Assembly: GCF_029637705.1 (NCBI RefSeq)
Contig: NZ_CP121252.1
Location: 186,001-250,000, forward strand
Direction: 5' to 3'
Source of the DNA: Citricoccus muralis
GTDB lineage: Bacteria > Actinomycetota > Actinomycetes > Actinomycetales > Micrococcaceae
DNA length: 64,000 bases
Positions 10,690 through 37,738 of the stretch are shown in pieces. Under the pieces are notes generated by a model that worked only from the letters and a program-made list of their open reading frames with translations, was not told the origin of the DNA and did no database searches. Position 1 is the stretch's first letter. The number at the start of each line of letters is the position of its first letter. The position numbers and the translations under genes were made by a program.

Positions 10690-10777
10690 ATGTTCGCCGA
10701 AAGTTCATGATGATCACACAGCCCGTTTCTAATGCCGCCGCTCGACCGACCGGGACCGATTAGAGGATTACACAGAT

Positions 10778-13700
10778 ATGAAATTCAAGGTCGTCAACTT
10801 TCAAGCCCATCGCATCAGCGGCTGGTTCTATGATCCCAAGCCCAGTGACACGAAATCCGTTCTCGATCTCGTTGTCGACGGTGAATTCATCGAGCATCTT
10901 CGGTGTAAGATCTTCCGCGGAGAGCTCTCGGCTGCAGATTTTCATACCCGCAACATCGGCTTCCTGGGGAGCCTACCGCCGCAGTTCTGGGACGGCACCG
11001 AGCACGAAGTTCAGCTAATTCATCGCGCTTCGGGGACCGTTCTGAAGCAGGACCGAATTCAGGTCCCGGATCGACGGGCCCCCTCGTCGACGGTGCGTGG
11101 TGAATTCTTGGTGACTCCAGCCGGTCAAGTAGCAGGATGGGCAGTGTGCGGTGAATCCTCGTCCGAGACTGCTCGGGTTAGGGTTTCCGTTGATGGTACG
11201 ACCGTGGAGGAGTCCCCAGCGAACCTGAAGAAACTGCCGTGGAAGCACGGCCGGATCGATCTGAAAGCTCCGTTCAATCATCAATACGGTGCCCAGATTC
11301 CCAGCGAATACTTTGATGACGCGTTGCACCGTATTGAGGTTTTCGTTCAGAGCCCTGACGGGTCCGAGGTGCGGCTACTGCAAGACGACGTGATACTGGC
11401 CGGAGAACACGCGGGGGTAGCTCGTCACGAAGTCGAGCGCATCAAGGAAGGACGTCCAGATACTTTCTTCAACTGGGTTGAAGATCTTTCGGTGCGTCGT
11501 GGTACCAGGTTGAAAGAGCTTTCATTTACCGAGTCATACGCGAGTGTCACGGTGACGGGCCCCGTCGGTCACCAGCGGGTGGACCTTCGCCTCGGTGACG
11601 CTATCGCCGTATTGCACGCTGTGAATGATGGCGACTCGGATGGCGAAACCACCGGCGAGCATCGATTCGCGGGCGAGCTACCGACGAAAGCTCACGTTCC
11701 AGAGCAACTGCGTCTGTACTCTTCTGGGGCTGAACTGTCCGAGACGTTTGATCTTCGACTTGGCGGTGAGACCGGTCGGCGCCCGCAGGATCTCCCGGAC
11801 GAAATTGAGCAGAGTCTCCACGGTGAGTTTTATCGATCGGATGCTGAATTCGACGGAGTGGCGTTTCATGGATGGGCCTTCCATACAGGTGCGCTCCAGT
11901 ATCCAGCGCGCGTTGTTCTAGAGTCCATCGTTGATGGAGTACCTCGTGAACTGATCGGAACAGACGCCAGGGCACGTCATCCCGAATCGATTGCGAAGTT
12001 TGGAGTGAAGCGCTCCGGATATTCGATGGTGCTTCCACCGGAGGCGCTCGTTACCGGCGAGAAACATCTCCGTCTGACTGTTGCACATGGGTCTATCGAA
12101 GAAATTCTCTGGGAGGACGACAGTTTCGATCCTTCGGACGAGATGCTTCTCGAGATGGCGCGCAAGTCCCTCGATCCAGACGCTGTCATCGAGATGTGGA
12201 AAAATGCTCGCCGCGCCGGGCGTGAGACTTTCTACCGCGAGTTCATGCGGACGCACCACAAGGCGAAGTCTGAGATCTCGTTGAAAAGGCTCGAACGGGC
12301 TGTGGCATCCCTATATGAGCTGCCGGGTGCCACTCTCAACCCGGCATCAGGCGCCATCTGGTACTGGGTCGAAGAAGTGCGCACGAACACTGGTCGTATC
12401 CACTGGTTCACCCAGAACGCGATCCGCAACCGCAATGGCGGAGCCCGCGACATCCTCGCCTACGCGGCCACTAAGGGCCGGTACGACTTCGATCAGCTCC
12501 ATGGAGTGCTTGAGTCCTACCGCATCAAACTATTCCGTGACCAAGCGCGTGACAACCTGCAGGCCGACAATTGGAAGACGGGCATGCTCTCGCTGGCACG
12601 GTACCTCTTCGCAGCCCCGCGCGACGACATCGACTACCTGGACGCCTTGACCTTGTACTCAATGGTGGAAGACTGGCGCGGGATCGCTGAGGTGACCGGG
12701 CCGAACCGTTCGTTCTACGGGGAGCTGTTGCACTGGCGCGGAGAATTCGACGAGTCCTACCGTTTGCTTACCTCCGGAGACCCAGACCCGGAACATGACT
12801 ACTCGCAGCGGCTGATGGCTCTCAATGCGCTGAACCCGCACGTGGGCGACGCTCGACACGGTCGGGACACCTGGCTGGTGGAGTTCAATCAGTTGATGGA
12901 GCAGGGCGGTGCTGCCGGCATCGAACTCGACGATGATGTCAGTTTCTTCTCCGTGAGCTCGTCGTTGCCCCCGGCGGAGGATGCCGGCAACGGACCGCTC
13001 GTCACCGTGCTGATGCCCATCTACGAGCCCTCCGCAGCCACAGATGTGGCGGTACGGTCGCTATTGGCCCAGACCTGGACCAATATCGAGATCCTCCTGA
13101 TGGATGACTGCTCTCCCTTGATCGACGCGGAGGGGAACCCGGCCCCGTACCGGGATCAGCTTGAAGCTCTTGCGGCCCTCGATGATCGCATCCGCCTGAT
13201 CTTCAACGAGACCAATCGCGGTTCCTACTCCGTGCGCAACGACGGGATTGATCTGTCCCGCGGTGAGTTGATCACCATCGCCGACAAGGACGACTGGCAT
13301 CACCCGCAACAGATTGAGCTGCAGGTGCGGGACTTCATGGATCACCCGGATCGGGTGGCAAACATGACTAACTGGGTGCGTGTGGATGAGCATCTGACCA
13401 TGAAGCTGCGCTCTGCCACGGGCAAGGTCTTCTATCCGTCACTGCCCTCGGTCATGTTCCGTCGCGATCCTGTGGTGAACGACCTTGGCTACTGGGACAC
13501 GGTACGGAAATCGGGCGACTCCGAATACAAGTCACGCATCGAGAACTACTACGGCATCAAGATCGAGCCGATCATCGACGCCCCGTTGGCCTTCGCCCTG
13601 ATGGAAGGCGGTAATCTCACCCGTGACGATTTGGGTGTGGGTTACCTTGCACCGGAACGTCGGGCGTACCTGCGCGCGTACAAGAGCTGGCACCGCAGTA

Positions 13701-20183: not shown

Positions 20184-21002
20184 CTACTCCCAGTAGCCAG
20201 GGGCCGCTCGTGTCTGTTCCCCCTGGTGGCGTCGCATATCAATGTCACCAAGGTTTATCGTGCGGGCATTATTCGCCAGCCGATTGACGATACTGTCCGC
20301 AGCGATTCTGTCAGGCAGAGCTGAAGCCCAGTACGCGGGCCCGGTTTGAGAAGCGATCATGGTCGCTGCCCGGTGTTCTCGGTTCGCCAAGATCGCGAAG
20401 AGATCGTTCGCGGCTTCAGGGTCTATACCGACGGTCAAGAAATCATCGATGATCAACAGATCCGCATCGGAGAGCCGATTCAATAAGGCTTGATGAGCGA
20501 TGCCATCGCCTCGAGCGATGACGAGACGACGGGCGAGTTCGTCCATGCGGGTGTAGAAGACTTTATGCTCGTTGTGACATGCTGCCACGGCAATCGCGCA
20601 AGCAATATAGGTCTTTCCTCCTCCTGTGGGCGAGGTGATCAACAGGTTAGCGGTCTCATTGGCCCAGTCATGGGCGGCATAGCGGGCCATCCTAGCTGGG
20701 GTGATATTTCGTCCTTCTTGATAGTTGATCTCTGCGATCGAGGCCCTCATGATCGGTAGCTGCGCAGCCAGGAGCAGTTTCTGAATGTTCTTCACTCGGC
20801 GTTGATCTAAAGCGTCGTCAACGGCCGCCAGGAATATTTGCTCCGGGGTCAGGTGGTCGTTGCTTTCATCGATGATGAGCTCTTCGAACTTCGCAGCCAG
20901 GTGAGTGATTCGTAAGGTGCGAAACTTCTCTTTGTCCTCGGTACTGAACACGGAATTCATCAAGGCGCCGCTCGTGGGTGTCGTGGTCATGGCGCTGTTC
21001 AC
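20184..21002 (-). CDS. istB: IS21-family transposition helper ATPase
   Basis: The 272-residue AAA+ protein has Walker A SPTGGGKTY and Walker B LLIIDDFL, followed by sensor-region ASQTGPAYWASALPD. IstB remodels target DNA and activates the IstA transposase. Its start overlaps the istA stop (20999-21002) as ATGA, the usual translational coupling in IS21 elements. A start at 20990 is also possible. The gene is uninterrupted. Confidence 0.92.
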   Translation of the reverse strand: MNSAMTTTPTSGALMNSVFSTEDKEKFRTLRITHLAAKFEELIIDESNDHLTPEQIFLAAVDDALDQRRVKNIQKLLLAAQLPIMRASIAEINYQEGRNITPARMARYAAHDWANETANLLITSPTGGGKTYIACAIAVAACHNEHKVFYTRMDELARRLVIARGDGIAHQALLNRLSDADLLIIDDFLTVGIDPEAANDLFAILANREHRAATMIASQTGPAYWASALPDRIAADSIVNRLANNARTINLGDIDMRRHQGEQTRAAPGYWE

Positions 21003-22582
21003 CGTCCCTGCTGGTAGTAGTCAGCTCCACGCACGTAGATCTGTGCTGGATCGAGGTTAGCTGCGGCCGCCTGGGGTTTGATGGTGGCGGCTGCCGCCCT
21101 GAGAGGTCTGGGTGTTTTCGTATCAGAATCAATAGCAGCCATGAGTCGCTTGAGTCCGGAATAGCTGGCATACCCGCCTAGGTTAGCTAACTGCGTGCAC
21201 GCAGCCTCGAGGCGTTGTTTATCGCGTTTGCCGAGGGTCTCGAGAATGTTCTGGCACTCCAGATACCCTTGAGCCTCGATCTTGTGGCGGTCTAGAACAG
21301 CGGTGATGATCTCCACGGTCGCCGGCCCGAACGCGGCTGCCCGACGGATAAACCAATCGCGAGACCACAAGCCCGCAACGTCTTGATGCTGGTGGGGTAT
21401 ATGCGCGGAATCAGTGGAGTACTGGCCCCGGCGACCATGTTTACGTCGGTGCTCGGCGATGATGGCATCACCATCGAAGATACTGACCTGTTGATCTGTC
21501 AGTCGTGCTCGTAGTAATTGACCTGCGAGTCTATGTGGCACTGAGTAGTGCTGATAGTCGCAGGTGACATGGTAATTCCGTCCCACTTTGACTTGCCTGT
21601 ATTCAACGTCTTCATACCCCTCAGCTGGCAAGCCTGCCAGGGCTGATGCTTCTTCTGCCAGGAATCGTTCGGACCTGGTTGTTCCATCGGCTCGGCGGAT
21701 CTCTTCATTGATCTCCCTCATCCGAACACTGATCGCGGTGTTGAGTTCGGTAATGGTCGTGAAGACGTCTTCTGCCAGATATCCGATGACGCGCTTGTTG
21801 ATCACCTGAACGGCAGATTCTACGGCGGCTTTGTCTCGAGGTTTGCGTACCCGGGCCGGCACAATCGCCGTTGCGTAGTGATCGGCGAACTGCTGGTACT
21901 TTGGATTCACTGCTCGGGCAGACTCGCCTTTGGTCGGGCGGTGCGTAGCAGTAGGCGCATTATCAGGGACCACGATTTGAGGGACCCCGCCGAAATACTC
22001 GAAAGCTGCCTTGTGAGCACTCAGCCATGAATTCATGCGCATATCAGTGCATCCCGTGCAGTACACCAAGCCCGAATAGGGTAACACCGCGACGAATAAG
22101 TAGACCTTAGTGATTTCACCGGTGACTGCGTCGCAGACCTGAAGGGTGTCACCAGCCCAATCAATGAATGCCGCCCGGCCCGGCTCATGATGCAAGGTGG
22201 CGACAAGATCATTTCTTGCCGCGTAATCGCTGAAGAGGTGGCAGTACTGAGAGTACGAGTACTTCCGCAGCCCGGAGGCCACACCGAGATAAGTTCTCCA
22301 CCCCTGAAGCAAGGTGAAGTGACGATTCGAACGCATCGAGGCCACCACCGGGCCGAATTCCGGGGCTAGGTAATCACCTGCAACTCGTCGACGCCGATCG
22401 GGGAAAAGCTCCTCGACCCGTTTAACGCTCATGACAGCAACTTGGTCACCGGTGAGGCCGTGCTCTTTGATCACCGCACGGGCTTTACCAACGTCTCGTT
22501 GGGAACATCCTAAGGATTCAGCGATATCTCGATATGACCGCGATTCCAGCAACAGGGACATGATCTTCTTGTAATCAGCCAC
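20999..22582 (-). CDS. istA: IS21-family transposase
   Basis: From the GTG at 22582 the product has 527 residues, starting ADYKKIMSLLLESRSYRDIAESLG, a helix-turn-helix region typical of IstA. The frame is open further upstream to 22651, but those residues do not resemble the family. The rve-type catalytic core shows IDWAGDT (first Asp), VPDNAPTAT (second Asp) and ESAVQVINKRV (Glu), completing the DDE triad. The basic C-terminus follows. No stop or frameshift is seen, so the element may still be mobile. Confidence 0.92.
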   Translation of the reverse strand: MADYKKIMSLLLESRSYRDIAESLGCSQRDVGKARAVIKEHGLTGDQVAVMSVKRVEELFPDRRRRVAGDYLAPEFGPVVASMRSNRHFTLLQGWRTYLGVASGLRKYSYSQYCHLFSDYAARNDLVATLHHEPGRAAFIDWAGDTLQVCDAVTGEITKVYLFVAVLPYSGLVYCTGCTDMRMNSWLSAHKAAFEYFGGVPQIVVPDNAPTATHRPTKGESARAVNPKYQQFADHYATAIVPARVRKPRDKAAVESAVQVINKRVIGYLAEDVFTTITELNTAISVRMREINEEIRRADGTTRSERFLAEEASALAGLPAEGYEDVEYRQVKVGRNYHVTCDYQHYSVPHRLAGQLLRARLTDQQVSIFDGDAIIAEHRRKHGRRGQYSTDSAHIPHQHQDVAGLWSRDWFIRRAAAFGPATVEIITAVLDRHKIEAQGYLECQNILETLGKRDKQRLEAACTQLANLGGYASYSGLKRLMAAIDSDTKTPRPLRAAAATIKPQAAAANLDPAQIYVRGADYYQQGR

Positions 22583-22711
22583 GATGAAGGCCTGCTTCCA
22601 TGGATCTAGAAGAGAAAGGCAACGCCGGACGACGCTACTACTCTTCAGCACACCATGGTGCTACCCAATACCCAGAACCGCGCTTACAGATACCCAGACC
22701 AGCGCTTTCAT

Positions 22712-23504: not shown

Positions 23505-24370
23505 TAAGGGATCACATCTTGCCCTCGAAGCTGAAGCGCATCGTGGAGAACCAGTACGTGCTTTCCGACAAGGAATAGTTGATCGGGGTGAACCTGATCG
23601 GAATGGTCGCCTGGTTCTGAGACGTCGCCCGGGAGGGCGACGTGGGGCGCACGCTTTGGTGCGTCGGTGCTCTGAAGCAGTTCTCGGGACGAGCGAATGG
23701 ACACGGGATTCGTGTCGTATGACACGCCTATCAGTGTTGCTTTACTGCGAAAAGGTCGGGTCGCCCTACGTGCATCGCCCTGGCTGGCTTGTGGTTGGAA
23801 AACAGAGAGCGACTGTATCGCCCCGCGCCAATTGTCGACGCCATGCCCGCACGGGGGAGGCAATCGCGGCAAGTCTGTTCACCGCTATGTGCTTCCGGAT
23901 GGGGCCCGTTTGTGGATAATCTCTTCACCGTCGACAAGCGCAATTGTCTCGCGGGTTGCGGGCCCCAGCTGACCAATCGGACATCAGCGTCAGGGGCATC
24001 ACCATAGGCCACCAATTGATAGCCTTCGCCGCGAGTGCGCTCGGTCGACACGCTGGTGAAATCGGTGTTGCCGTTGATAATGGTCCCGCCACCTGGGGCG
24101 GCGACAAAAAGATGTCGGACTTCAGCCGTGCAACGTTATGGTCGTTATCCGTGTGCTCGAAGTGAGCCGCCTCTGACAATAGCGACGTCTGGGGAGACGA
24201 AGAAGCCGCTATGTCGGAAAGCATCGCATCGTATGCCGTGCTGAAGAGCGGTGTGGGTGTTTTCGATGAAACGACGGGTCAGGAGTGACGCGACGTTGAC
24301 GCTACAGGAGTACCAATCTCGTGCCGTGATCAACGCGGAGTAGGCAGCGAGGACGGCACGGTTCGTCACG
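23505..24370 (-). pseudogene. second, degraded copy of the Mur-ligase-like gene, truncated by the IS1634-type element
   Basis: Four reading-frame pieces align in order with the Mur-ligase-like protein encoded at 25952-27420. They are SPDVAIV (start 24369); AAHFEHTDNDHNVARLKSDIFLSP (start 24224); GEGYQLVAYGDAPDADVRLVSW (start 24051); and HGVDNWRGAIQSL with SYDTNPVSIRSS and LQLRGQDVIP (start 23872). At least three frameshifts separate them. The N-terminal P-loop region is absent. The 3' part stops exactly at the IS right end at 23504, so the element inserted into this copy and its last segment is lost. It is a paralogue, not an identical duplicate. Confidence 0.75.
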
Positions 24371-24549: not shown

Positions 24550-25959
24550 ATGACCAGTTCTGTGCCGCAACATTTCTCGGTTGACGTCGTCAGGGAAGCG
24601 TTCGGAACACCGCTGGCCGGCTATTCCATCGTTTTGGAGGCATGGCGTCGCGGCCTCGAAGTGCGCTTGTTAGACGGTCAGATGCGGAGATTCTTCATCT
24701 CTAGCGAGAATCGTCGAATCAAGTTCGACAAGGCCCGCCCATCCACGACTACTGCCACTGCTATGCGCGTGGTGAAGAGCAAGTCCATGACGTCGGCCCG
24801 TCTGCGTGGCGCCGGGGTGCCAGTGCCGGCGAATGCTGTCATCGATCCGGCTAATGAAGATGCTGTTGAACGTCTAGTGATGGAGGCTTCTGCCCTTGGC
24901 TACCCGGTCGTGCTCAAGCCGCTGATTGGCAGTATGGGCCGCGATGTTTACACCAATATCCAAACAGAGGCGGACCTGCTGGAGATTTACCGCTATCTGA
25001 ACCGCGCTGGACAGAAGAAGCAGAAGTATATTCTCGAGGAGCACTTCGCCGGTGAGGACTATCGAGTCCTGGTGATCGGCGATCGAGTCACCGGAGCCGT
25101 ACTACGCCGCCCCGCGAACGTCATTGGTGATGGAGAACATACCATCGCAGAGCTGATCTCGCTTAAAAACAAAGCGCGATCCTGCAATCCGCATCTCTCC
25201 TCTAAACGCATCAAGCCGGACCATGAGCTACGGCAGTTCATCTCCCGACAGGGCCTGAACATAGAATCCGTGCCTGACTCGGGGACGCTGGTGATGTTGC
25301 GCGGCAAAGCCAATGCGACACAGGGCGGCGACAGTATCGACCGGACCGATGAGGTTCCGGAAGCCCTCAAAGCAGCAGCGGTGCGCGCGGTGGCAGCGAT
25401 TCCAGGCCTATTCATGGCTGGAGTGGACATCATCTATGACGAAAAGCGCTAACCGGCGGAGGATAGTTTCCGGGTTCTCGAGCTAAACTCCCGCCCCGGG
25501 ATTGAGATTAACATGTTCCCTTGGGAAGGCCAGGGACGGGATGCCCCGCGCGATATCATTGACCAGCTCTTTCCTGACGTTCCGCGACCGTCTGCCCCGG
25601 GACTTGAAACTGTGTCGTTGAACGCATCTGTCTTGCTGGGACCGATGCGCAGCGGGGTCGTCAATGAAGTGCTCGTAAAGAGTAAGCCCAGCCATAACTA
25701 TCCGTGCCGTCTCCGCTTTGAGGCTGAACGAGCCGTCGATTTGAGCCCCGCGGAGAAGCGCCAACTGCTCATGCTCTCGCGGCAGACGCAGGTCGCCGGA
25801 GGAGTGTGGACTGAGCCGAGCGGAACCTACGTCATAGTCTGCGGTGTTGAGGAGAACGTGCGCATATTCGTGCGCAGGGCCCGAACGATCCTCGGGATTA
25901 AACCTGGTAGCGAGGCTCCGTGGAAAGGAATCGTCATGCAGGGGTTCGACTTTAACTGA
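24550..25959 (+). pseudogene. ATP-grasp amide ligase (cyanophycin-synthetase-like) interrupted by one in-frame TAA
   Basis: An ATG after GGAGG opens 300 codons. TAA stands at 25450-25452, and the same frame then continues 169 codons to 25959. The first part has ATP-grasp features: KSKSMTSARLRGAGVPVP, GYPVVLKPLIGSMGRDV, YILEEHFAGEDYRVLVIGDRV and ANATQGGDSID, the last two as in the ATP-grasp half of cyanophycin synthetases. The metal-binding motif LELNSRPGIEINMF lies just after the stop, so the truncated product would lack it. Undamaged, this 469-residue enzyme would phosphorylate a carboxylate and join it to an amine. It is convergent with the Mur-ligase gene (8-base overlap). Loss of function is likely unless the stop is read through or is a sequencing error. 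Confidence 0.7.
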
Positions 25960-27420
25960 CCGAATGCGTCGGGACAGTACCAGCTTTGAGCAACGACTTC
26001 ACCCATTCGTTCAGGCCGGTTCCTCCGGAGGCTTTCATAAGAACAACGTCCGCGTCACACAACAGGGACGGAAGCTCCCGTTTCACCGATTCCAGGCCAT
26101 CCCAGTGCCGGACATCGTGCCCTCGCGACTGAAGTTCATCTCGGAGAGCCCGCATGTGCGTCCCGAAAAGGACGAGGCGGTCCGGCATGAACTCGTCGAC
26201 CACATCGGCCAGTTCACGATGGATTCGGTCGGACTGTTCCCCAAGCTCGAGGATGTCTCCGAGAAGGGCGACGCGCCGCGCTCCCTGCGGGGCATCGACG
26301 GTCCCTAGATTCTGCAAGGAAGATCCAATCGAGGCCGGATTCGCGTTGTAGGACTCGTTGAGCAGAGTGATCACTCCGCCGTTGGTCAGGGCGAGCTCGC
26401 GGACATCGCCGCGACCGGACTGCGATTGGAAGTCCGCGAGGGACTGCATTGCCTCGCGCCAGTCTTGTACTCCGTGGGCGCGTAACGCTGCCAAGACCGC
26501 GAGGCTGTTCGGCGCGGAGTGCCTGCCGGCAAGGCCCAGGCGGTAGGAGATCTCTTCGCCGTCGCCCAAAGCGGTTGTCTGGTGCGTCGCCGGGTCCCAA
26601 CTGACAAGGCGGATATCGGCGCCGGATGACTCGCCGTAGATGACTACCTGATACCCCTCGGTGCGAACCCTTTCGATAAGGAGGTCGGCATACTCGGTGT
26701 CACCGTTGATCACAGCGGTGCCTCCGGGGGGAGGGGACAAGAAGATGCCGGATTTCAGGCGTGCGACATTCTCGACGCTTCCGATGTGTTCCAGATGGGC
26801 CGCGGCGATGGCGGTGACAATGGCGACATCGGGTGAAATTGGAAACGCGGTCGTACGGAAGACCTCGAGCGCCGCGGATGACACTTCGAGCACGGTGTGG
26901 TCGCTCTTCCACGCGATGCTTAGCCCATGCAAGATCGGACGATGTCGGTTGCGGTTTTCCGGTTCGGTGGCAACTGTTATGTCCCTGTCCGAGCGCAGTG
27001 CGTGCATCAGCATGGCTTTCGTCGAGGTCTTTCCGGCGGCACCAGTGATGCCGGTGATGTGCGACTGCTCGAGCTGATCGCGTAAGATCGTGACGATATT
27101 GCAGACGAGGGCGAAAGTATCTTTCGCATAAAAGACATTGTGTCCTTCGAGCATGTCGGTACCTCGCAGCTGGTCCGAGCAGATCACACCCGCGGCCCCA
27201 AGGCGAGGGTACGCTGGATATTGTTTCGAGTCTTCTGGGGAGAAGGATGGTCCGTTTCTTCGGGCGACTGTGGCCAGGAAGCATCTCGCGGCGCGTAAAA
27301 TCGATCGCGCCTTCGTTCCTTGCGGTACCCGACGGCTAGGCCAGCGAACTCGATGTCGCGGCGGCCCTCGTATATCCATCCGGTATCGGGCAGGCGCGCA
27401 CGTAGTTCCCTGATCAGCAC
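25952..27420 (-). pseudogene. Mur-ligase-like protein with a one-base frameshift near its N-terminus
   Basis: The GTG at 27420 follows AAGGA and encodes LIRELRARLPDTGWIYEGRRDIEF up to RTLALG, then runs into a stop at 27184. The downstream frame resumes at AAGVICSDQLRGTDML. Adding one G to the run of four at 27196-27199 would restore GAAGV, so a single deletion explains the break. The rest has the MurF-type P-loop GITGAAGKTSTK, then SPDVAIVTAIAAAHLEHIGS, NSLAVLAALRAHG, LLNESYNANPASI and ALLGDILELGEQS. Mur-type ligases join amino acids by acyl-phosphate chemistry. Repaired, the protein would have about 488 residues. It follows the S11-like gene after 39 bases and is probably in the same operon. 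Confidence 0.75.
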
Positions 27421-27459
27421 AGTCTCTTCCTTAGGAGTGGGAAGCAGGACGGGGCTAAT

Positions 27460-29337
27460 TTAGTTACATAGAGTTAGGAAGTCCCGTGCTGTATCCAAGA
27501 GCTGGCTGAACGTAGGGCAAAATCTCGGATTCGCTAGGATCGCGCGTTGAGAACTACCGTGACGTGCGTGCTGCCGTCAAAGTGTTTCTAGGCGTAAGAG
27601 ATATGACGGCGGCCATGTTCCGGTCTTGGCCGACTGCATCTCGACCACAGGAGCTGCGGGCGAAATCGACACTTCGTGTTGTATCGGCTGAACGCGCTGA
27701 CGGGGGCCATCGATGCTCACGTCGTGGTAGAGCAAGCCCATGGCCGTGACGAGGACACCATCCTCGAGCATCTTTAGGTGCAGATCGGCTATCTGTACCG
27801 CGCTCATCCGACCGAAATTCCAGGGCGTCGTGAACTCAGCCCCTTGGTATCCTAACCGCGCAGCTTCAGCGTTCATTTCGTCGACGAACAGTCCGACCGG
27901 GTCTTGGCTGCGGTGAAGCCTCTCGCCGAGAACTCTAGCCAGGGTATAGGGGGCGGTGTTGTCCGAGGCCATCATCATGGCGCGGAGCAGATCCTCGTGA
28001 CAGACGAGGTCCCGGCGAAGGAATCTGTGATAACTATATTTGCGTCGATCGGTGGCGAGGATCTCAGCTTTTCTCTGTAAGCCCCGCGCCCCTACTGAAG
28101 GCCTGGCGCGTAAGCCAGGCGGTCATCATTTTGGTGAGAGATGCGATCCCGGGCCCGTCGACCACAGTATCCGCTGCTCCGTGGGTCACCGTTGGATGTC
28201 CTGAACTATCTGCCGAATAGACGATGACATCGTCGGGGAATTGCGAAGATTGCGGACGCAGCCCCGAGAGCCGATAGATTAGGTTCTCCATGCGGATCCG
28301 TCCGTCCTCGGGCATCTCGCCCTGACGGATTAGCGTAGGACCGATTGATCCATCCCAGCGGCGTGCTCCCTGATGACCGCCACCGAGCGTCAAGCCGCCC
28401 AGCGTGCGATTGCTCTTCCTCTCTGAATCGGCGCGATACGTCCTTGAGTCCAGGCTCAGTTGACTGTTGGACCCATGAAACGTAGAGGTAAATAGATGTG
28501 GTTCAGTGTCCGTGGGGTTCCCGCCGGGAGAACTTGATCCTGACCATATGCTCAGCGGCGTCCCGGGTTCGTCTCGGGTGTGAACCGTCTGACGGCTTTT
28601 CCGCATCCCGTCGAAGAGGAAACGCTGTCCCGGATCGGACGTTGCAGAGCGAGCGAGAGTGATGATGGTGTTGGGCTGACGCAAGCGCTGGACGTCAGCA
28701 AATGTCGTCGACAACGTTCCATGGCCAGTCTGCAACCCGTGCGGAAGTTCGAATTCGCCCTCGACTAAAAGCACGGTGTCCTCAGCACGACCGAGGGATA
28801 ACGGAGGAAGGTGATTCAGCCCGTCAGCCACCGTCTGAATCTCGCCGAGACTGTTTGTGACCGTTGTTGTCGCATCTGTGGGATCGTAGACCGCGGTCCG
28901 ACCATCGATTCGGGCAAGGCCCAGAATCTGCTCGGATGGCGTCTTGCTCTTGTCCGAAGCGAACTCGACCAGCCACTACGGGCCTTCAGAGGACCGGTCG
29001 CTGACGGGAGAAGTCATCCAGAACGTTGCTGGAAGTCCGTCTTCGGGCAACGTCTGAAAGCAGTAGATACGTCGGGTGGAAAAGCTCGGGAGTTTGTCAA
29101 GTAATCCTGGCGTCTGGACAGGCAAACCCAAGGCTCTGGCCGTCGAAGCATGCTCAACCCGATACCATCGAGGGCGCAGGCTACTCAGATCCTTATCGGA
29201 ATCGACAATTCTCGGAGTGCGCGACGACTCGAGAAGTTCATTCCACTCCTCAGGTGGCCCGTGGAAGCCCAGCTTCTGCGCGAAGGCGTACCCGTCGGCA
29301 GTGCATTGTGGTCGGAAACGAGATACTGGATTGTCAT
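27460..29337 (-). pseudogene. large S11 (D-Ala-D-Ala carboxypeptidase-like) serine hydrolase, multiply broken
   Basis: The C-terminal half keeps all three penicillin-binding motifs: SLTK (in GPGIASLTKMMTAWL), SDN (in MMMASDNTAPYTLARVLGER) and KTG (in MQSAKTGTWP). The N-terminal half is an unrecognised domain beginning MTIQYLVSDHNALP and including YAFAQKLGFHGPPEEWNELL. Lesions: a frame change near 29298, TAG at 28976-28978, a frame change near 28070 in an A run, and TGA at 27577-27579, after which the same frame continues through SQLLDTARDFL to a TAA at 27460. The unusual joining of an N-terminal domain to an S11 domain is visible despite decay. It lies between the asparagine-synthase-like and Mur-ligase-like genes on the same strand. 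Confidence 0.65.
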
Positions 29338-29361
29338 TAAATGTTTCTCGAACCGTCCTGA

Positions 29362-31014
29362 TCAGTCTGACGACCCAGTCTTAGTCAAACTGCGCAACTT
29401 GGTGAGTTCCTCGGTGAGAGCAGCTTTTTCCTTCTTGAGCTGTTCCAGCTCTAGCTCCACCGCGGTCTTACCACGCTGGTAGGAGGACAAAGGCCGATCA
29501 TAGCGAGGTGGTGCCCAGGTGTGGCCGTTCAAGGGGTATTCCAACAGGCTCGGCTCCCCGCAATTGATGATCTCACGGAAGAGGCTGAGCTGCACTCGAT
29601 CGATCTCCGGGACGGAGAGCATTAGTCGGATCATCCGCCGGGATCCGTACAGTTGGTACGTATCGAAAGTGACGTCCGATTCCACGATATGAGGATGGTT
29701 CCAATTGCCCACGCGGTGCTCCCAAATGAACATATCGGTCATGCGATATCCCGCAGGGATCGACCGAAGCTGCGTGGTGTCGATGTATTCCTGGAAGCCC
29801 TCTTCACCTAGGTCCCAGAAGGGATCCGAGAGCTCCCGGTCTACCTTCTGTGCACGCTTGGTCAGCGAGGCCATGCGGCGGGCTCCGATCTCAATATCTT
29901 CGGAGAAGTGCAGCTGGCGCGCGAAATGCCACTTACCGACGCCGTTGATCTGTCCGCGAATGTGCAGCGCGTCGTGGGGCAACTTGTTGTAGTAGGCCCA
30001 GGAGATCAGTGTGTTCGATCGACGGGTACTGAGCTTCCTTAGCGACTCGATGAAAGCCTTCGGAGGCTTGCTTGCCGAACTCAGATCGAAAAGCTGATGA
30101 GGGATTCTCAGCTGCGCAGCCATTTTGGCTGCGAGCTTGTCCCGGTGAAGCTCACCGCTCTGGTGCCCGGTATTCGGATCCTTCGTGTAGGTGAAGGCCT
30201 GCACCGCGTTGCTCGCTTACGCGAAGGCAGCCAGCGAGGTCCGACTGTCGACACCGGCCGACGCAGACACCAGAACCTGCCGGCCGGACGACAAGAGGAT
30301 CTCCACCTGACGTTCCAAGATGGGCACCATGAGGTCGGCGGCTTGCTCGACGGTGAGTGGGGTGTATGGGCGGGGGCCTACGCGGTTGATCTTGCCTGTA
30401 CCTAGTTGTACCTCGGAGTTGGGCAGGAGCTGCCAGACCCCCTCATATCGAGTGGCGCGCCCCGGGAAGTCGTTGTTCCGGGTATTGCTCACCCACTCGA
30501 CCCATTTGCTGTCCGGCGCGTTCAGCGTCAATCCCACCGCACGGACGTGGGCGGCGATCAGGCTGGCGTCTTCGTTGTGGAACGCGGCACGCAATCCGAT
30601 GGCGTCGGTCTGGAAACGGATATCGTCGCCTTCGCGGTCCACCACGATGAACTGGCCGAACTGGTCCTCCAACGCGTCCAGGTACTGCTGGCGACCCTCG
30701 CGGCGCGCATCGAGCAGATGCTGCCCGATCGTGCGCATGTCTGTTGTCCCGAGCTCCGAGTGTAGAGCATGGCCGAAGATGAGGATGCCGCACTGTCCGT
30801 CATCGTAGGCAGCGAGCGTTCCGCGAGGGTCCCATCGCACGATCCGGTCTGCAAAGCGCGTGCGCAACCAGAAATCCGGTACCACGGGGGAGTGCTGGTC
30901 CGTGTGGATCACGTAGCCACGTGCATAGAGCAGATGCGAATAATCGTCTACAGGCTTGATGGCAGCAGGGTTCGCAGGAACGTATTCCCACGAGGTCGAC
31001 GTTGTAGCGTCCAT
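29362..31014 (-). pseudogene. asparagine-synthase-like protein split by an in-frame TAA
   Basis: An ATG at 31014 opens a 550-codon frame whose codon 266 is TAA (30217-30219). Flanking sequence reads SLAAFA, stop, ASNAVQAFTYTK without a shift. The first part resembles the class II amidotransferase fold but has no N-terminal catalytic Cys, so it would not use glutamine. It ends with the ATP-pyrophosphatase loop VSASAGVDSRTSLA, so the stop falls just behind the active loop. The second part is the helical synthase domain and ends in a coiled coil (LELEQLKKEKAALTEELTKL). Such proteins occur in surface-polysaccharide and peptide loci; the substrate here is unknown. It follows galU after 15 bases. 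Confidence 0.75.
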
Positions 31015-31029
31015 TCGCCCCTCAGATGT

Positions 31030-31926
31030 TTAGCTGGAGAAAGTGTCGCGCAACCATTCCTCGAAATCAGAACCAATTTCTTCGTGGCGCAACGCGAGCT
31101 CAATATTCGCTTTAAGGTACTCCAGCTTGTTGCCTGTGTCGAAACGGCGACCGTCGTAGACCACCGCGACGACGCCACCGTACTGCTCAGGATCTTTGGC
31201 CAGTTCGATGAGAGCGTCGGTCAGCTGGATCTCGCCGCCGGCGCCGGGCTGGGTGCGTTCGAGCACCTCGAAAACCTCGGGGCGCAGAACGTAGCGTCCG
31301 ATGGCCGCCAAATTGGACGGTGCGTCTTCCTTGGCGGGCTTCTCGATCAGGTCATTGGCCCACAGCGCACGCCATCGGGTGTCCTCCAGCTCGCCGCCGG
31401 GCTGCACGATGCCATACGACGACACCATGTCCTCCGGTACCTCTTGGACCGCGATAACGCTGGCGCCGGTGGACTCGTGGATCCGGATCATCTCAAGCAG
31501 CAGGTCTGCACCGTCATCGATGATATCGTCACCCAGCAGCGCAGCGAAGGTTTCCTGCCCCACATGCTGCTGGGCGCGCAGGATGGCGTGGCCCAGGCCC
31601 TTGGGGTCGCCCTGACGCACGTAGTGGATGTCGGCGAGATCAGTGGCGGCTTGAACTGCCTGGAGCACCTTGGTCTTGCCGCGACTTTCCAGCACATCTT
31701 CCAGCTCGGCCACCCGATCGAAATGATTCTCAAGCGGGGTCTTGCTACGGCCGGTCACCATCAGCACGTCAGAGAGGCCGGCTCCGGCAGCTTCTTCCAC
31801 CACGTATTGGATGGCAGGTCGATCCACCACGGGAAGCATTTCCTTGGGAATGGCCTTCGTGGCCGGGAGGAATCTGGTTCCGAGTCCTGCCGCGGGAATG
31901 ACTGCCTTCGTGATGTTGTGGTTCAT
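31030..31926 (-). CDS. galU: UTP--glucose-1-phosphate uridylyltransferase
   Basis: The 298-residue protein shows the nucleotidyltransferase signature VIPAAGLGTRFLPATKAIPKEMLP at its N-terminus, then QGDPKGLGHAIL, ALLGDDIIDD, IEKP and FDTGNKLEYLKAN, all characteristic of bacterial GalU. It makes UDP-glucose from glucose-1-phosphate and UTP. It heads the minus-strand run of asparagine-synthase-like, S11-like and Mur-ligase-like genes and is divergent from ugd, with about 180 bases of shared upstream region. It is intact although everything downstream in its presumed operon is broken, as expected for an essential precursor enzyme. Confidence 0.95.
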   Translation of the reverse strand: MNHNITKAVIPAAGLGTRFLPATKAIPKEMLPVVDRPAIQYVVEEAAGAGLSDVLMVTGRSKTPLENHFDRVAELEDVLESRGKTKVLQAVQAATDLADIHYVRQGDPKGLGHAILRAQQHVGQETFAALLGDDIIDDGADLLLEMIRIHESTGASVIAVQEVPEDMVSSYGIVQPGGELEDTRWRALWANDLIEKPAKEDAPSNLAAIGRYVLRPEVFEVLERTQPGAGGEIQLTDALIELAKDPEQYGGVVAVVYDGRRFDTGNKLEYLKANIELALRHEEIGSDFEEWLRDTFSS

Positions 31927-32106
31927 GCTTTCCTGAGGGTCGCGGATACGGGAGTTGGCCGATGTGCTCCTTGAAGCCTACTCGGTGACCTTAGGTAAGC
32001 GACCTTTCCAGAAGGTTAAGTCGCTTTCAGCCTTGATATCCTCTGTAAGTACATGGCCGATCAGCACCGAATGGGCCAAAGCAACAGCACGACGGGGGAC
32101 ACTCGA

Positions 32107-33273
32107 ATGCGCATTACTGTGGTGGGACTGGGATACGTAGGACTCGCGAATGCGGTCTTGCTGGCCAGGAAACACGAGGTGGTGTCGCTCGATATTGACG
32201 CTTCTCGCGTCGACATGGTGAACCAGCGCGTTTCGCCGCTCGTGGACCAGGAGCTGATCCAGCACTTCTCTGAGGCCGAGCTGAACCTGACCGCGACGAC
32301 GGATGCCGCCGTTGCCCTCGACAATCCCGAGTTCGTGATCATCGCGACGCCCACCAACTACGATCCTGACACCCAGTACTTCGACACTTCGAGTGTCGAA
32401 GCCGTGCTGCAGCAGGTGCAGGACCTGGCTCCCAACGCGGTGGCCGTGATCAAGTCCACCATCCCGATCGGCTTCACTCAGCGCATGCAGGAGACGCACC
32501 CCGATCTGCAGATCGTGTTCAGCCCGGAATTCCTCCGCGAAGGCAAGGCGCTCTACGACAACCTGCATCCCAGCCGCGTGATCGCCTCCGGCTCCGAGGA
32601 ACCCGCCACCCGTTTCGCCGAGATGATGGCCGACGCAGCTGAGGACACTGACGTCCCCACCGTCATCACCGGCACCGACGAGGCCGAAGCGATCAAGCTG
32701 TTCTCCAACACCTACCTGGCCATGCGCGTGGCCTACTTTAACGAGCTCGACACCTTCGCGGTGGAGAAGGGTCTGGACTCGGGGGCGGTGATCCGCGGTG
32801 TCTCCCTTGATCCGCGCATCGGCGACCACTACAACAACCCCAGCTTCGGCTACGGCGGCTACTGCCTGCCGAAGGACACCCGTCAGCTGCGTGCCAACTA
32901 CGAGGGAGTGCCGCAGAACCTCATCGACGCTATCGTCGACTCCAACCAGACCCGCATGGACTTCATCGTTAATGATGTGCTCCGCCAGAATCCTTCCGTG
33001 GTAGGCATCCACCGCCTGGCAATGAAGGCTGGTTCGGACAACTTCCGTAGCTCGTCCATCTCTGTGGTGCTTGAGGGGCTGCGTGATCGCGGTACCGAAG
33101 TGGTCATCTATGAGCCGACCGTCGAGCAAAGCCCGATCGAGGGTGTGGCTCTGGAGAACGATCTGAACACGTTCCTGGAGCGCTCCGAACTGATCATCAC
33201 CAACCGTGTCGGTGACGAGCTGGAGGGCGTCCGGGACAAGATCTATTCCCGCGACGTCTACGGCAGGGACTGA
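32107..33273 (+). CDS. ugd: UDP-glucose 6-dehydrogenase
   Basis: It oxidises UDP-glucose to UDP-glucuronate with two NAD+. The start at 32107 (MRITVVGLGYVGLANAVLLA) is preferred over an in-frame ATG at 32053 because GGGGGA precedes it and the Rossmann motif then lies at the N-terminus. This gives 388 residues, the length of the short-form E. coli Ugd. Other landmarks: TPTNYDPDTQYFDTSSV, KSTIPIGFTQ, FSPEFLREG, and the catalytic Cys253 in FGYGGYCLPKDT. With WecC at 5310 the locus can make two uronic acid donors. Confidence 0.94.
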   Translation: MRITVVGLGYVGLANAVLLARKHEVVSLDIDASRVDMVNQRVSPLVDQELIQHFSEAELNLTATTDAAVALDNPEFVIIATPTNYDPDTQYFDTSSVEAVLQQVQDLAPNAVAVIKSTIPIGFTQRMQETHPDLQIVFSPEFLREGKALYDNLHPSRVIASGSEEPATRFAEMMADAAEDTDVPTVITGTDEAEAIKLFSNTYLAMRVAYFNELDTFAVEKGLDSGAVIRGVSLDPRIGDHYNNPSFGYGGYCLPKDTRQLRANYEGVPQNLIDAIVDSNQTRMDFIVNDVLRQNPSVVGIHRLAMKAGSDNFRSSSISVVLEGLRDRGTEVVIYEPTVEQSPIEGVALENDLNTFLERSELIITNRVGDELEGVRDKIYSRDVYGRD

Positions 33274-34296: not shown

Positions 34297-34646
34297 AGCC
34301 CCCGAGCTGCAGAGCTCGGCTCAGACGCCTCCCAGGCCGCCTCATATTCATCGGCGACCTCTGGCCAGACCACGTCTCGAGCCGCCTCAACAGAGGTGAT
34401 CTCGAGGCCGGTGTGGTCGAGAATGACGAAATCATGCGGGATGATCCGACCAGCACGGTCTTTGCGACGTTCTGGATCAAGGATTCTGAGGGCGACGCTA
34501 CCGTCGGGAAGGTGGCGGATACCTTCAGCTTCGGAGTCGAGGTCCGCAAAGCATACCTCGTAGATTTCCAGTGGATCGGCGAGCCCGCCGGATCTAAGAA
34601 ACCGAAACCCCCAGGTTCGGCCGCGCGTGGCCCAAATCAGTTTCAT
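34293..34646 (-). CDS. small protein coupled to the P-loop GTPase, unknown function
   Basis: The 117-residue soluble protein (KLIWATRGRTWGFRFLRSGG, then RKDRAGRIIPHDFVILDHTG) has no recognised motif. Its ATG overlaps the GTPase stop by 4 bases (34643-34646), so it is translated with the GTPase and is probably its partner. It is the last gene of the operon that begins with the ABC transporter permease at 37640. Confidence 0.6.
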   Translation of the reverse strand: MKLIWATRGRTWGFRFLRSGGLADPLEIYEVCFADLDSEAEGIRHLPDGSVALRILDPERRKDRAGRIIPHDFVILDHTGLEITSVEAARDVVWPEVADEYEAAWEASEPSSAARGL

Positions 34647-35821
34647 CGTTCTCCCCTGAGGATGACGTTCTCGTTTTCACCGTTCTCAAGGTCGATCTTG
34701 AACTGGGTCAAAATGGCTCTCATCTGATCGCCCTGCTCACGAGCTGCCTGGTTAGAGCGCCGTAGCCGCTCTCCCGCCAACTTTGAGTACTCTTCGAACG
34801 CATCGGAGCTGATGATCGAATTGAGAAGCTTCTGGGCCATCCCCAAAGGCCCCTTGGAAGTCGGGAGGCCGCGGAGCACCCTCCCCAGTACAGCACTGCC
34901 TAATTCGAGGCCAGGTCCCAATAGGCTGTCTAGAACCTTCCGGGGGACCTCTTGCGTACGCGCCCATCGGAGATGTCGTTCTAAGGGCAGAATTGCAGCC
35001 AGGGGAAGGATCTGGTTAAGCCCAATGCGTCGGTCTACGTTAATGCCGTTGGGGTGGAACTCAGCCGAAGAAAGGCGCAGGAAGTCTTCACCCACGGAGA
35101 GTGCCTCATCTCCAACGATGAATTCGCTCAATACTTCTTGCAGTCTCTCGATGTCACCAGCGGCACGCAAGATCATCAAGTCTCGAAAATCTTGAACCGT
35201 CATCTCGGGGATCAAGTCCGCCTTTGAGAGAGCGAACATCCAAATTCTCGGGAAACGCTCCAGTCGTTCCCCATCCTCCAGGATGCTCTTCTTAAGGGAG
35301 AGCAGGGTGTTCTCGATGTTTCCGAAGAGCGACTTCAAATAGCGGGACTCTTCTCTCGGATATTCGGCGAGTTGCTGGGCATCAACCAAGATCAATGCGA
35401 CGTTGGAGTTCAGTAGCGAACGGAAGGTATCGATGCGTCGTTGTTCTTCGGTCGGACTGCTGGGACTGTTTTCGAACCATTCCCCCGGATAGTCGTGCCA
35501 GACCAAACGAAGGCTGTTGAAGTCGCGGCGCTTGACAGCTTTTGTGTTCTCGGTGGCCTTGGGATCGACCTGGAACGTGAACGTCGCGGACTTGAACCGA
35601 TTGGCAACGGGCACGGCATCTTCTTGTTTCATGCCCAAGTAGATCTGCCGTAGTCGACGCCCTTGACCGGTGTCGGGAACATGAAGGCGATAGAGCGCCT
35701 CTGCTTCGCGTTCGCCGCGGTACATCTCTGCACCGTAAAAGGAAGAGAGAAGAACCGTCTTCCCGCTTCCAGACTCACCGAACACGGCGATGTGTTGTTC
35801 TCGGGAATGATCGGCCTTCAT
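34643..35821 (-). CDS. P-loop GTPase (TRAFAC-type, possibly double-GTPase family) in the exporter operon
   Basis: The 392-residue protein has clear GTPase signatures: G1 GESGSGKT at 15-22, G3 DYPG at 110-113 and an NKxD-like G4 SKAD at 199-202, preceded by the strand VALILVDAQQ. The C-terminal third is helical and ends in charged heptads (LRRSNQAAREQGDQMRAIL). It is not an ABC ATPase or sugar kinase. Its start lies 36 bases after the TagH-like stop, so it is co-transcribed with the exporter and coupled to the small gene after it. It might gate export, or be a defence-type GTPase pair. Both roles are inference. Confidence 0.7.
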   Translation of the reverse strand: MKADHSREQHIAVFGESGSGKTVLLSSFYGAEMYRGEREAEALYRLHVPDTGQGRRLRQIYLGMKQEDAVPVANRFKSATFTFQVDPKATENTKAVKRRDFNSLRLVWHDYPGEWFENSPSSPTEEQRRIDTFRSLLNSNVALILVDAQQLAEYPREESRYLKSLFGNIENTLLSLKKSILEDGERLERFPRIWMFALSKADLIPEMTVQDFRDLMILRAAGDIERLQEVLSEFIVGDEALSVGEDFLRLSSAEFHPNGINVDRRIGLNQILPLAAILPLERHLRWARTQEVPRKVLDSLLGPGLELGSAVLGRVLRGLPTSKGPLGMAQKLLNSIISSDAFEEYSKLAGERLRRSNQAAREQGDQMRAILTQFKIDLENGENENVILRGER

Positions 35822-35857: not shown

Positions 35858-36682
35858 TCATGGGGTGAGCTGCAGGTCGGGGTTCTGCTTAGCGTAGGTG
35901 TCCTTGACCGCAGTCAGGAAGGTGTTGGCGTACTCGAGCTCGCCGCGCCCGATGGCGGAGGCGAAGGTCATGTACTGTTCCATCTTCTGCTTGGTGTCGC
36001 CATCGGCCACAATCTGACCATCCTCTAGCCAAAGCACGCGCGTGCACATCTCCTCGATGGACCCGCGTGAGTGGTTGACCAGGAACACGGTGCCGGCTTT
36101 CTCGATCATCTTGTCCATGGCGTTCTTGGAGCGCTCCTGGAAGGTGGCGTCACCGGTAGCCAGCGCCTCGTCGACCATGAGGATCTTCGGCTGGGCTGCC
36201 ACGGAGATCGCGAACTTCAGACGTGCGCCCATACCGGAGGAGTAGGTGTTCATCGGCTGATTGATGGAGGGGCCAATCTGTGCCAGGTCGATCACCGACT
36301 CCCGCGTGGCTTCGGCCTCCTCAGGGGAGTAGCCCATGGCCAACAAACCCAGAATCACGTTCTCGGATCCAGACAGGTTGGGGATCAGCGCGGCACCCAC
36401 ACCCAGTAGCTGCGGCTTGGCGGAGGTGTACACCCGGCCGGTGTTGACTGATTCCAGTCCAGACAGGGCGCGTAGCAGCGTGGACTTGCCGGAGCCGTTG
36501 CGACCGATGACCCCGATGAACTCGCCCTCGCGGGCGGCGAAAGAAATGCCTTTGAGGACCGGTTTGATGATGCGGCGGGTGTTGAAGCGCAGCGGGTTCC
36601 GCGACTTCTGTACGGTGCGGACCTTGTAGCCGAGGTGGATGTTGTCGGCCAAGACAGTAATGCGGGGATCAGCGCTCGTCAC
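35858..36682 (-). CDS. tagH: polysaccharide/teichoic-acid ABC transporter ATP-binding protein
   Basis: The 274-residue ATPase has Walker A GRNGSGKST from residue 60, signature YSSGMGARLKF from 147, Walker B ILMVDEALATGD from 167 and switch histidine in VNHSRGSIEE. The Y-S-S-G-M form and early IKPVLKGISF are typical of the TagH/Wzt subfamily that exports lipid-linked wall polymers. There is no long C-terminal carbohydrate-binding extension. It overlaps the permease gene by 14 bases, so the two form one exporter. The symbol indicates subfamily, not proven substrate. Confidence 0.9.
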   Translation of the reverse strand: MTSADPRITVLADNIHLGYKVRTVQKSRNPLRFNTRRIIKPVLKGISFAAREGEFIGVIGRNGSGKSTLLRALSGLESVNTGRVYTSAKPQLLGVGAALIPNLSGSENVILGLLAMGYSPEEAEATRESVIDLAQIGPSINQPMNTYSSGMGARLKFAISVAAQPKILMVDEALATGDATFQERSKNAMDKMIEKAGTVFLVNHSRGSIEEMCTRVLWLEDGQIVADGDTKQKMEQYMTFASAIGRGELEYANTFLTAVKDTYAKQNPDLQLTP

Positions 36683-37640
36683 GGGCGTAGTCCTCCTCAG
36701 CCTGCCAGAAGTAGATGAATCCGAAGCTCAGCAGCCCCACGGCCCAAGCGGCCAGGCCCAGCCAGGTGGAGAGGTCCGGGATGGTGTTCTCCATCAGGAT
36801 GGAGCGGTAAGCATCCAGGATCATCCAGACCGGGTTGGCCTTCACGATGGCCAGGGCGGTGGGGTGATCGAGGAACCGCTCCACGGGGAAGATCACGCCT
36901 GAGGCGTACATCAGCACACGCACTACGAAACTCATGGCTTGAGCGACATCGGGGAACTTGAAACCGAAGCGGGCGAAAAAGAAGGCGATCCCGAGGTTGA
37001 TCAGGGTCTGCAATACGAGCACCACGGGCACGAATAGCCAGACGGTGCTGATCGTGACGTGTGGTGGAATGGCCAGGATCATCACCATCATCACCACGAT
37101 GATGAGTACCTGGGCCAACAGCTCGCGGATCACCAGCGAAATGGGGATCGCGGCTCTCGGATAGGAGAACGACTTGATCATCGCCTTGGAACTGACGATG
37201 CAGCGCACGCTCTGCGACAAGGTGCCAGAGGTGAACTGGAACATCAGGATGCCGATGATGATGAACGCCACGAAGTTGTCCATGCCGCGACTGACCCCGA
37301 GCACTACGCCGAAGATCAGCCAGTAGAAAGCCGCCAGCAAGATGGGGCTGAGCACCAGCCAGAGCGGCCCTAGACGGGTGTCATTCGTGCGGCTGAGCAC
37401 CTTGTTGCGGGACTCACGCATGATGAAGTGACGCCGCTGCCAGACCTCGGCCAAGTACTCACCCATCGGGGCGCGGCCACCCATGGGCTTCAGGTGCCTG
37501 GTCTCGCCATAGAGGTCGGTGACTCGACCGGCCAGGTGCGTGGTTTCCATCTCCCGCAGGAAACGCAGCTCATCCTGGTCGAGCGTACGCCGAGCACGGC
37601 GCACGGTGGCGCCGCTGCGGCCTCTGTATTGCGTAGTCAT
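36669..37640 (-). CDS. tagG: polysaccharide/teichoic-acid ABC transporter permease
   Basis: The ABC-2 type permease (323 residues) has an N-terminal cytoplasmic region ending in an amphipathic segment (EYLAEVWQRRHFIMRESRNKV), then six hydrophobic spans, the first being LGPLWLVLSPILLAAFYWLIFG. Conserved family features are RYPRAAIPIS-like SYPRAAIPISLVIREL and SGVIFPVERF. It is the first gene of the exporter-GTPase operon. The ATG at 37640 is used; a TTG two codons upstream is possible. It would flip a polyprenyl-linked glycopolymer made by the cluster glycosyltransferases to the outer face. Confidence 0.9.
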   Translation of the reverse strand: MTTQYRGRSGATVRRARRTLDQDELRFLREMETTHLAGRVTDLYGETRHLKPMGGRAPMGEYLAEVWQRRHFIMRESRNKVLSRTNDTRLGPLWLVLSPILLAAFYWLIFGVVLGVSRGMDNFVAFIIIGILMFQFTSGTLSQSVRCIVSSKAMIKSFSYPRAAIPISLVIRELLAQVLIIVVMMVMILAIPPHVTISTVWLFVPVVLVLQTLINLGIAFFFARFGFKFPDVAQAMSFVVRVLMYASGVIFPVERFLDHPTALAIVKANPVWMILDAYRSILMENTIPDLSTWLGLAAWAVGLLSFGFIYFWQAEEDYARDER

Positions 37641-37738
37641 CCACAACAGGGTATCGCGAACAGATAGCCGGATCGGATTCTCGTTGGGCGCATCTGAACT
37701 CCAGCCCGCACGGAGGTGTGCTCGCTACGCTGGAGGGC

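Follow-up and report, generated by a model that had tools for sequence, protein, structure and literature searches.

A decayed gene set in a wall-polymer locus of Citricoccus muralis, a candidate relic of a glycopolymer decoration module

Four linked, broken genes were analysed in a wall-polymer locus of Citricoccus muralis. They encode an asparagine-synthetase-like (Asn-like) amide synthetase, an S11-like DD-peptidase, a MurF-like ligase and an ATP-grasp ligase similar to the ATP-grasp half of cyanophycin synthetase (CphA). The stretch examined, referred to as the window, comprises 64,000 nucleotides (bases 186001-250000 of a single-contig genome of 3.13 Mb), and the genes lie in a patch of broken genes and insertion sequences at 19.5-31 kb. 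With a rough probability of 0.5, the set is the relic of a wall-glycopolymer decoration module, working copies of which would make an acidic wall glycopolymer decorated with amides or peptides and resembling teichuronopeptide. This reading is supported by homologues that recur as linked pairs or triplets inside the polymer clusters of Nesterenkonia, a genus of the same family. The relic genes and the adjoining galU are as follows, in window coordinates.

23510-24366, minus strand: second copy of the MurF-like gene, heavily decayed (41-45% identity to the main copy, in two matches with two stops each)
24550-25959, plus strand: CphA-like ATP-grasp ligase with a C-terminal extension, broken (53% identity to the N. 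alkaliphila homologue; Pfam RimK, 1.3e-7)
25952-27420, minus strand: MurF-like ligase, frameshifted (Pfam Mur_ligase_M, 3.7e-31, and Mur ligase C-terminal domain, 3.1e-10; NCBIfam murF, 6e-59)
27577-29337, minus strand: S11-like DD-peptidase with a large N-terminal domain, broken (SLTK, SDN and KTG spread over pieces)
29362-31014, minus strand: Asn-like PP-loop amide synthetase, broken (63% identity to the N. alkaliphila homologue)
31030-31926, minus strand: galU, one open frame (Pfam NTP_transferase, 1.1e-27)

An earlier note on this DNA had described galU, the Asn-like gene, the S11-like gene and the Mur gene in this order on one strand, with gaps of 15, 24 and 39 bases, and the ATP-grasp gene as convergent. 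The order and orientation are seen in the reading frames, and 15 bases do separate the end of the galU stop codon (31030) from the Asn-like start (31014). The 24 bases separate the Asn-like stop (29362) from the first following ATG (29337), but this ATG shares its frame with the final S11-like piece, which carries KTG, and not with the bulk of the gene. The third gap was wrong: the KTG frame stops at 27577-27579, in the alignable N-terminal frame of the Mur gene a stop codon occupies 27460-27462 and the first GTG lies at 27418-27420, and the spacing is about 156 bases. The ATP-grasp gene overlaps the Mur stop by 8 bases and lies mostly outside the interval that the note had delimited (25952-31014). 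The second Mur copy, in several pieces beyond the ATP-grasp gene, had been missed.

Codon-checked lesions are present in all four genes, as had been claimed. The ATP-grasp and Asn-like genes each contain one in-frame TAA (25450-25452 and 30217-30219, respectively) and are otherwise continuous over 461 and 518 columns, respectively, when aligned with the proteins of relatives. The N-terminus of the Mur gene (27384-27274) is in a different frame from the remainder, with the break between 27274 and 27259; an open frame covers 25952-27379, and about the last 411 codons are uninterrupted. The S11-like gene is broken by TAG at 28976-28978 and TGA at 28064-28066, followed by a change of frame. The Asn-like, ATP-grasp and Mur genes align with their relatives at 35-63% identity (E from 0 to 1e-54), and the S11-like gene more weakly (38% over 66 residues, E = 5e-7). 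On the sequence, the four linked broken genes are taken as real pseudogenes and the pathway as dead in the window genome; the lesions may instead stem from sequencing error.

Sequence models give little for the Asn-like protein. Pfam returned no asparagine-synthase match for its relative, only coiled-coil matches at 0.001-0.004, below cut-off; NCBIfam asn_synth reached only 5.6e-4, and a family profile run against PDB sequences found only a coiled-coil match (0.067). An AlphaFold2 model of the N. alkaliphila homologue (mean predicted local distance difference test score (pLDDT) 65.5, predicted template modelling score 0.65) matches carbapenam synthetase, beta-lactam synthetase, a hydroxyamidotransferase and AsnB (Foldseek, 3e-10 to 6e-8). 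Structural alignment gave Z scores of 16-18.7, the best being 18.7 with a root-mean-square deviation of 4.6 over 360 aligned residues and AsnB tying for Z. As modelled, the protein folds like beta-lactam synthetase and AsnB, with Ntn and PP-loop domains. The glutaminase domain of AsnB starts with Cys-Gly. The structural alignments begin at residues 33-34 of the model; the family reads Arg-Gly-Tyr/Phe there in place of Cys-Gly, and Arg-Gly stands at the aligned start in the five family-alignment rows that cover the region; the note was right that the glutaminase Cys is missing. The PP-loop motif S-x-S-A-G-x-D-S/T is present in the family. Beta-lactam and carbapenam synthetases also lack the glutaminase Cys and share the fold; they differ from the Asn-like protein in sequence (12-15% identity) and in gene context.

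The ATP-grasp protein is 53% identical to its N. alkaliphila homologue over 461 columns with one stop. The top match of a profile of its family is cyanophycin synthetase (1.2e-56), over the ATP-grasp half, and the N. alkaliphila homologue matches NCBIfam cya_phycin_syn (7e-66, residues 15-345), followed by N-acetylglutaminylglutamine synthetase and GshAB. A Pfam acylphosphatase domain was found in other ATP-grasp proteins and not in the Asn-linked one, for which alignment of the C-terminal domain is only suggestive of kinship with acylphosphatase. Three Nesterenkonia genes (L106:4241-7252 and 8516-11119; L112:82-4443) fuse an MR_MLE (enolase-superfamily) domain to a CphA-like ATP-grasp domain, with an acylphosphatase domain added in the L106 fusions and a PGA_cap domain added once, in L112. 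They may be epimerase-ligase fusions that serve peptide polymers.

The earlier note had taken the ATP-grasp and Mur genes for the separated halves of a cyanophycin synthetase. A CphA-like ATP-grasp half is indeed present, but the Mur protein, scored with its N-terminus out of frame, matches NCBIfam murF at 6e-59 (200.1 bits, below the cut-off of 288.6) against 6.7e-8 for cya_phycin_syn; its nearest solved chains are MurF (1.1e-21), with no CphA chain among its PDB matches at 1e-5, and the split-enzyme interpretation was rejected. The Mur central and C-terminal domains are recognized by Pfam, and identity to the Nesterenkonia homologues is 35-41%. The P-loop and NANPxS are kept in all six aligned MurF-like proteins (YNANP in five, FNANP in G212). 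In MurF, the N-terminal TDSR motif serves in nucleotide binding. It is present in 9/9 housekeeping MurF proteins (from 11 loci given, nine of which yielded MurF) and in 0/6 of the MurF-like proteins, the N-terminus of the window copy being judged in its own frame. The predicted structure of the MurF-like protein has a poor N-terminal domain (pLDDT below 50 for residues 1-132, with two sequences in the alignment), and the model is therefore silent on the acceptor site.

SLTK, SDN and KTG can be read in the S11-like gene over two broken frames. The window pieces gave no Pfam match, and a PDB sequence search with them gave nothing below 0.36. Its sole match in 30 Nesterenkonia genomes, the genus to which the search was confined, is in PF2B19 (33% identity; L118:1-2000, G317 contig 80), where the piece matches Pfam Peptidase_S11 at 6.5e-5, below cut-off. 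An apparent transposase, seen by eye, adjoins that relative.

Genes in relatives were called with a simple codon-composition script; the genomes compared are related, not independent, and include none other from the genus of the window organism. Asn-like matches were found at E<=1e-8 in 40 of 395 family genomes, ten of them below 1e-45. An order-level search found matches at 1e-30 in five of 396 genomes, only the window's own being strong and the next best 5e-54. A CphA-like ATP-grasp gene lies within 3.5 kb of the Asn-like gene (between match ends) in eight of the ten genomes with a match below 1e-45. The distances are 15 bases in G222, 32 in G266 (N. alkaliphila F10), 64 in G191, 68 in G166, 0.7 kb in G289, 1.1 kb in G317, 2.8 kb in G337 and 3.5 kb in the window genome (G000); G088 and G355 have no ATP-grasp match near the Asn-like gene. 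The two genes are convergent in seven of the eight and divergent in G337. In N. natronophila, an ATP-grasp piece is on the same strand as the Asn-like gene. The CphA-like scan matched 12 of 43 genomes, three of them added as MurF-like carriers.

A second MurF-like gene is present in eight of 30 Nesterenkonia genomes (G289, G266, G151, G166, G212 and G317, with broken frames in G323 and G348), and those that carry it have a separate MurF match elsewhere in the genome. The gene of G348 lies in several frames and may reflect sequence errors, since the housekeeping MurF of that genome also lies in two frames. Many of the Nesterenkonia relatives of the window genes are intact, and in N. alkaliphila F10 both the Asn-like and the ATP-grasp gene are open. 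A Ddl match was found in all 30 genomes and a second Ddl in three (G289, G212 and G317), each time within 0.5 kb of the MurF-like gene; the two Ddl matches of G348 are adjoining pieces of one gene. Five of nine genomes have a DD-peptidase gene (S13 or S11) no more than about 1.2 kb from the MurF-like gene: the window, G266, G289, where Ddl separates the two, G323, where the peptidase gene is broken, and G317, where it is S11-like and also broken. The distance from the MurF-like gene to an ATP-grasp match is at most 10 kb in five of the nine carriers (G000, G266, G289, G212 and G317); P is about 2e-5 under random placement, uncorrected for relatedness and meaningful only as an order of magnitude. 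The genes are really two sub-modules, one of Asn-like and ATP-grasp genes and the other of MurF-like, Ddl and DD-peptidase genes.

The clusters of relatives contain family 2 glycosyltransferases, UDP-sugar dehydrogenases, tagGH and an acyltransferase. NeuB, a cytidylyltransferase and a pyruvyltransferase are encoded in the N. cremea cluster and a rhamnosyltransferase in that of N. haasae. TupA-like genes occur in the clusters of N. alkaliphila (an ATP-grasp protein, 4.1e-37) and N. natronophila; a Pfam scan of window proteins found no TupA. In G153, from another genus, an ATP-grasp gene has tagGH, a TupA-like gene and a UDP-sugar dehydrogenase gene as neighbours, with no Asn-like gene there, and in a second G266 locus tagG adjoins an ATP-grasp gene. 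In N. alkaliphila, a gene noticed by eye (L049:11018-12463) sits between the MurF-like gene and the ATP-grasp gene and has an initial GAGAS motif as in SIR2-like proteins; it is possibly a defence gene.

The note had treated the genes as one coherent set and named conservation beside galU, ugd and tagGH as a check. The parts do recur together in Nesterenkonia polymer clusters, and genes that might never have been linked elsewhere are linked repeatedly; among the genomes examined, both sub-modules stand together only in N. alkaliphila and the window. The order beside galU is not shared: tblastn found galU in none of 19 relative loci from 11 genomes (some of the loci overlap or are cut off by the end of a contig). 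The same search placed a UDP-sugar dehydrogenase in the Asn-like loci of three of seven Nesterenkonia (G222, G289 and G166), and N. cremea alone had tagGH next to the Asn-like gene.

Homology, loss of the Cys, a conserved PP-loop and linkage, all read from sequence, underlie the following scheme. The CphA-like ligase would form amide bonds by acyl-phosphate chemistry, and the glutaminase-less Asn-like enzyme would do so by acyl-adenylate chemistry with an amine other than that of glutamine. These bonds would join amino acids to carboxyls carried by acidic sugars (uronic or nonulosonic acids), by peptides or by a polymer precursor. The MurF-like ligase, with its altered N-terminal acceptor domain, would keep the donor side of MurF, use another acceptor and add D-Ala-D-Ala or a similar dipeptide to such a peptide; D-Ala-D-Ala is suggested as the donor because Ddl adjoins, and a dedicated Ddl would make the dipeptide in some genomes. 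An exported DD-peptidase (S11 or S13) would trim or cross-link the peptide outside. An acidic peptide polymer similar to teichuronopeptide would result, with a plausible benefit at high pH.

Several findings weigh against this scheme. Only nine of the 40 genomes matched by the Asn-like search at 1e-8 also have a CphA-like match at 1e-10, the other 31 having none, and the pair is therefore a feature of the closer Asn-like proteins only. Close ATP-grasp relatives occur in six Nesterenkonia without a listed Asn-like match (G303, G339, G310 and G231; partial in G250 and G348). No Ddl stands beside the MurF-like gene in five of eight Nesterenkonia, and each of six genomes from outside that genus, including that of the window, has a single Ddl. 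Four carriers lack an ATP-grasp match in the 10 kb around the MurF-like gene: G166, G151, G323, where the gene is at a contig edge, and G348, where the distance is about 13 kb. Five genomes carry both Asn-like and MurF-like genes (G000, G266, G289, G166 and G317), and the sub-modules adjoin in only two of these, the window genome and N. alkaliphila. The one relative found for the S11-like protein is itself broken, and all catalytic steps are ones that we infer. A further point comes from a soluble-peptide pathway. Nesterenkonia are often salt-loving, and the Asn-like and ATP-grasp pair might make a small soluble amidated peptide as an osmolyte, its placement in polymer loci being due to chance or co-regulation. 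The asnO-ngg genes for N-acetylglutaminylglutamine amide (NAGGN) set an asparagine-synthetase-like gene beside one with a CphA-like ATP-grasp domain, according to excerpts of PMC8070244, and the ATP-grasp protein matches the N-acetylglutaminylglutamine synthetase model at 2.3e-47. That match covers model positions 247-545 of 547 only, with no GNAT domain; the AsnO model TIGR03104 was unmatched by L096, L092 and the window pieces and gave L094 16 of 570 bits; the Asn-like enzyme lacks the glutaminase Cys, and its neighbours are glycosyltransferase and polymer-export genes. Membership of the NAGGN pathway was rejected on the GNAT domain and the AsnO match, and an osmolyte of this kind is considered unlikely.

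It is possible, though still improbable, that the MurF-like, Ddl and DD-peptidase genes are a spare or modified set for ordinary peptidoglycan, such as a resistance or growth-phase variant, independent of any wall polymer; this and the soluble osmolyte are the chief alternatives. In N. cremea the second Ddl shares 62-67% identity with the Ddl that other Nesterenkonia carry in single copy and has the same loop residues as the first (three versus three), and the MurF-like proteins retain the C-terminal NANPxS of MurF. The loss of TDSR in all six, against its presence in all nine MurF, and linkage to CphA-like ligases, NeuB and glycosyltransferases argue against such a set, and no dehydrogenase or dipeptidase of the vanHAX kind was noticed among the neighbours by eye. 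A secondary-metabolite cluster, in which an enzyme similar to beta-lactam synthetase would serve for ring closure or for joining a peptide natural product, is highly unlikely. Carbapenam and beta-lactam synthetases are the top fold matches and a macrolactam cyclase model is weakly matched (2.4e-4, far under cut-off), but AsnB ties for Z, the neighbours are polymer genes, and carrier or precursor genes were not noticed by eye. Scattered housekeeping paralogues gathered by insertion sequences are hardly credible: IS21 is nearby, all four genes are decayed and the sub-modules are apart in most genomes, but linkage is repeated in other genomes, Nesterenkonia with the MurF-like gene have another MurF match elsewhere, and the recurrence in that genus contradicts this account.

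The wall-polymer decoration reading can be set beside known systems. Teichuronopeptide of alkaliphilic Bacillus (tupA) is an acidic wall polymer of uronic acid and glutamate peptide, in the portion of PMC8153356 available. TupA-like genes in the N. alkaliphila and N. natronophila clusters, and carriers that include alkaliphiles by name, resemble it; the set of Nesterenkonia and the window differs in its CphA-like and PP-loop amide synthetases and its MurF/Ddl pair. Linked peptide ligases have been tied to peptidoglycan, teichuronopeptides and O-antigen (excerpts of PMC4431377). CphA shares the homologous ATP-grasp half, whereas here the genes are separate and convergent, the Mur ligase is MurF-like and the ATP-grasp protein has an extra C-terminal domain. 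The MurF and Ddl of peptidoglycan are homologous ligases, and Ddl stands beside the MurF-like gene in three genomes; the MurF-like proteins lack TDSR, and the extra copies adjoin polymer genes. Pseudomurein of methanogens, in which Mur ligases and ATP-grasp enzymes build peptides on a wall polymer containing uronic acid (PMC11915815, in part), offers an archaeal parallel in this combination, but the pMurC and pMurE models were matched weakly (2.8e-7 and 6.8e-4).

The wall-polymer locus spans 2138-37646 and contains genes for a LytR-CpsA-Psr (LCP) ligase, four large glycosyltransferases, two UDP-sugar dehydrogenases, galU and tagGH. Further features of the locus are as follows.

2138-3163, minus strand: LCP wall-polymer ligase (Pfam, 9.9e-44)
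5424-6572, plus strand: UDP-N-acetylmannosamine dehydrogenase, wecC proper (NCBIfam equivalog, 516.7 bits; cut-off 459)
20184-22651, minus strand: IS21-type istA/istB pair near the relic (istB, Pfam IstB_IS21, 6.2e-39; istA from reading frame and position only)
32053-33273, plus strand: UDP-glucose 6-dehydrogenase-like gene, one open frame (NCBIfam PRK15057, 519 bits, below the cut-off of 757; NDP-sugDHase above cut-off)
35858-37646, minus strand: tagH/tagG polymer exporter, two genes (Pfam ABC_tran, 9e-19; ABC2_membrane, 4.8e-13)

The earlier note had placed the set next to wecC, ugd and tagGH; wecC proper is about 20 kb off, and the neighbour of galU is the UDP-glucose dehydrogenase-like gene, which would supply uronic acid. 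A double-GTPase-like protein (34643-35821; Pfam DO-GTPase2, 4.3e-8) is encoded between this dehydrogenase gene and tagH.

The window copy is dead and hence of modest interest itself. That wall polymers can carry amino acids and peptides is known from their chemistry, and to our knowledge few of the enzymes have been identified; no description of the MurF-like/Ddl link or of the Asn-like/ATP-grasp pair in Nesterenkonia polymer clusters was found in the open-access literature searched. A doubtful extension of the decoration reading is that some Nesterenkonia might possess a second peptidoglycan-like network, lost in the window genome, in which an acidic wall glycopolymer would carry peptide stems built by CphA-like and PP-loop enzymes, D-Ala-D-Ala caps added through Ddl and the MurF-like ligase, and cross-links made by its own DD-peptidase. 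If the reading is true, the MurF-like/Ddl pair tied to CphA-like ligases would be a genetic handle on peptide-bearing bacterial wall polymers, and it may point to a polymer cross-linked by the kind of enzyme that beta-lactams target.

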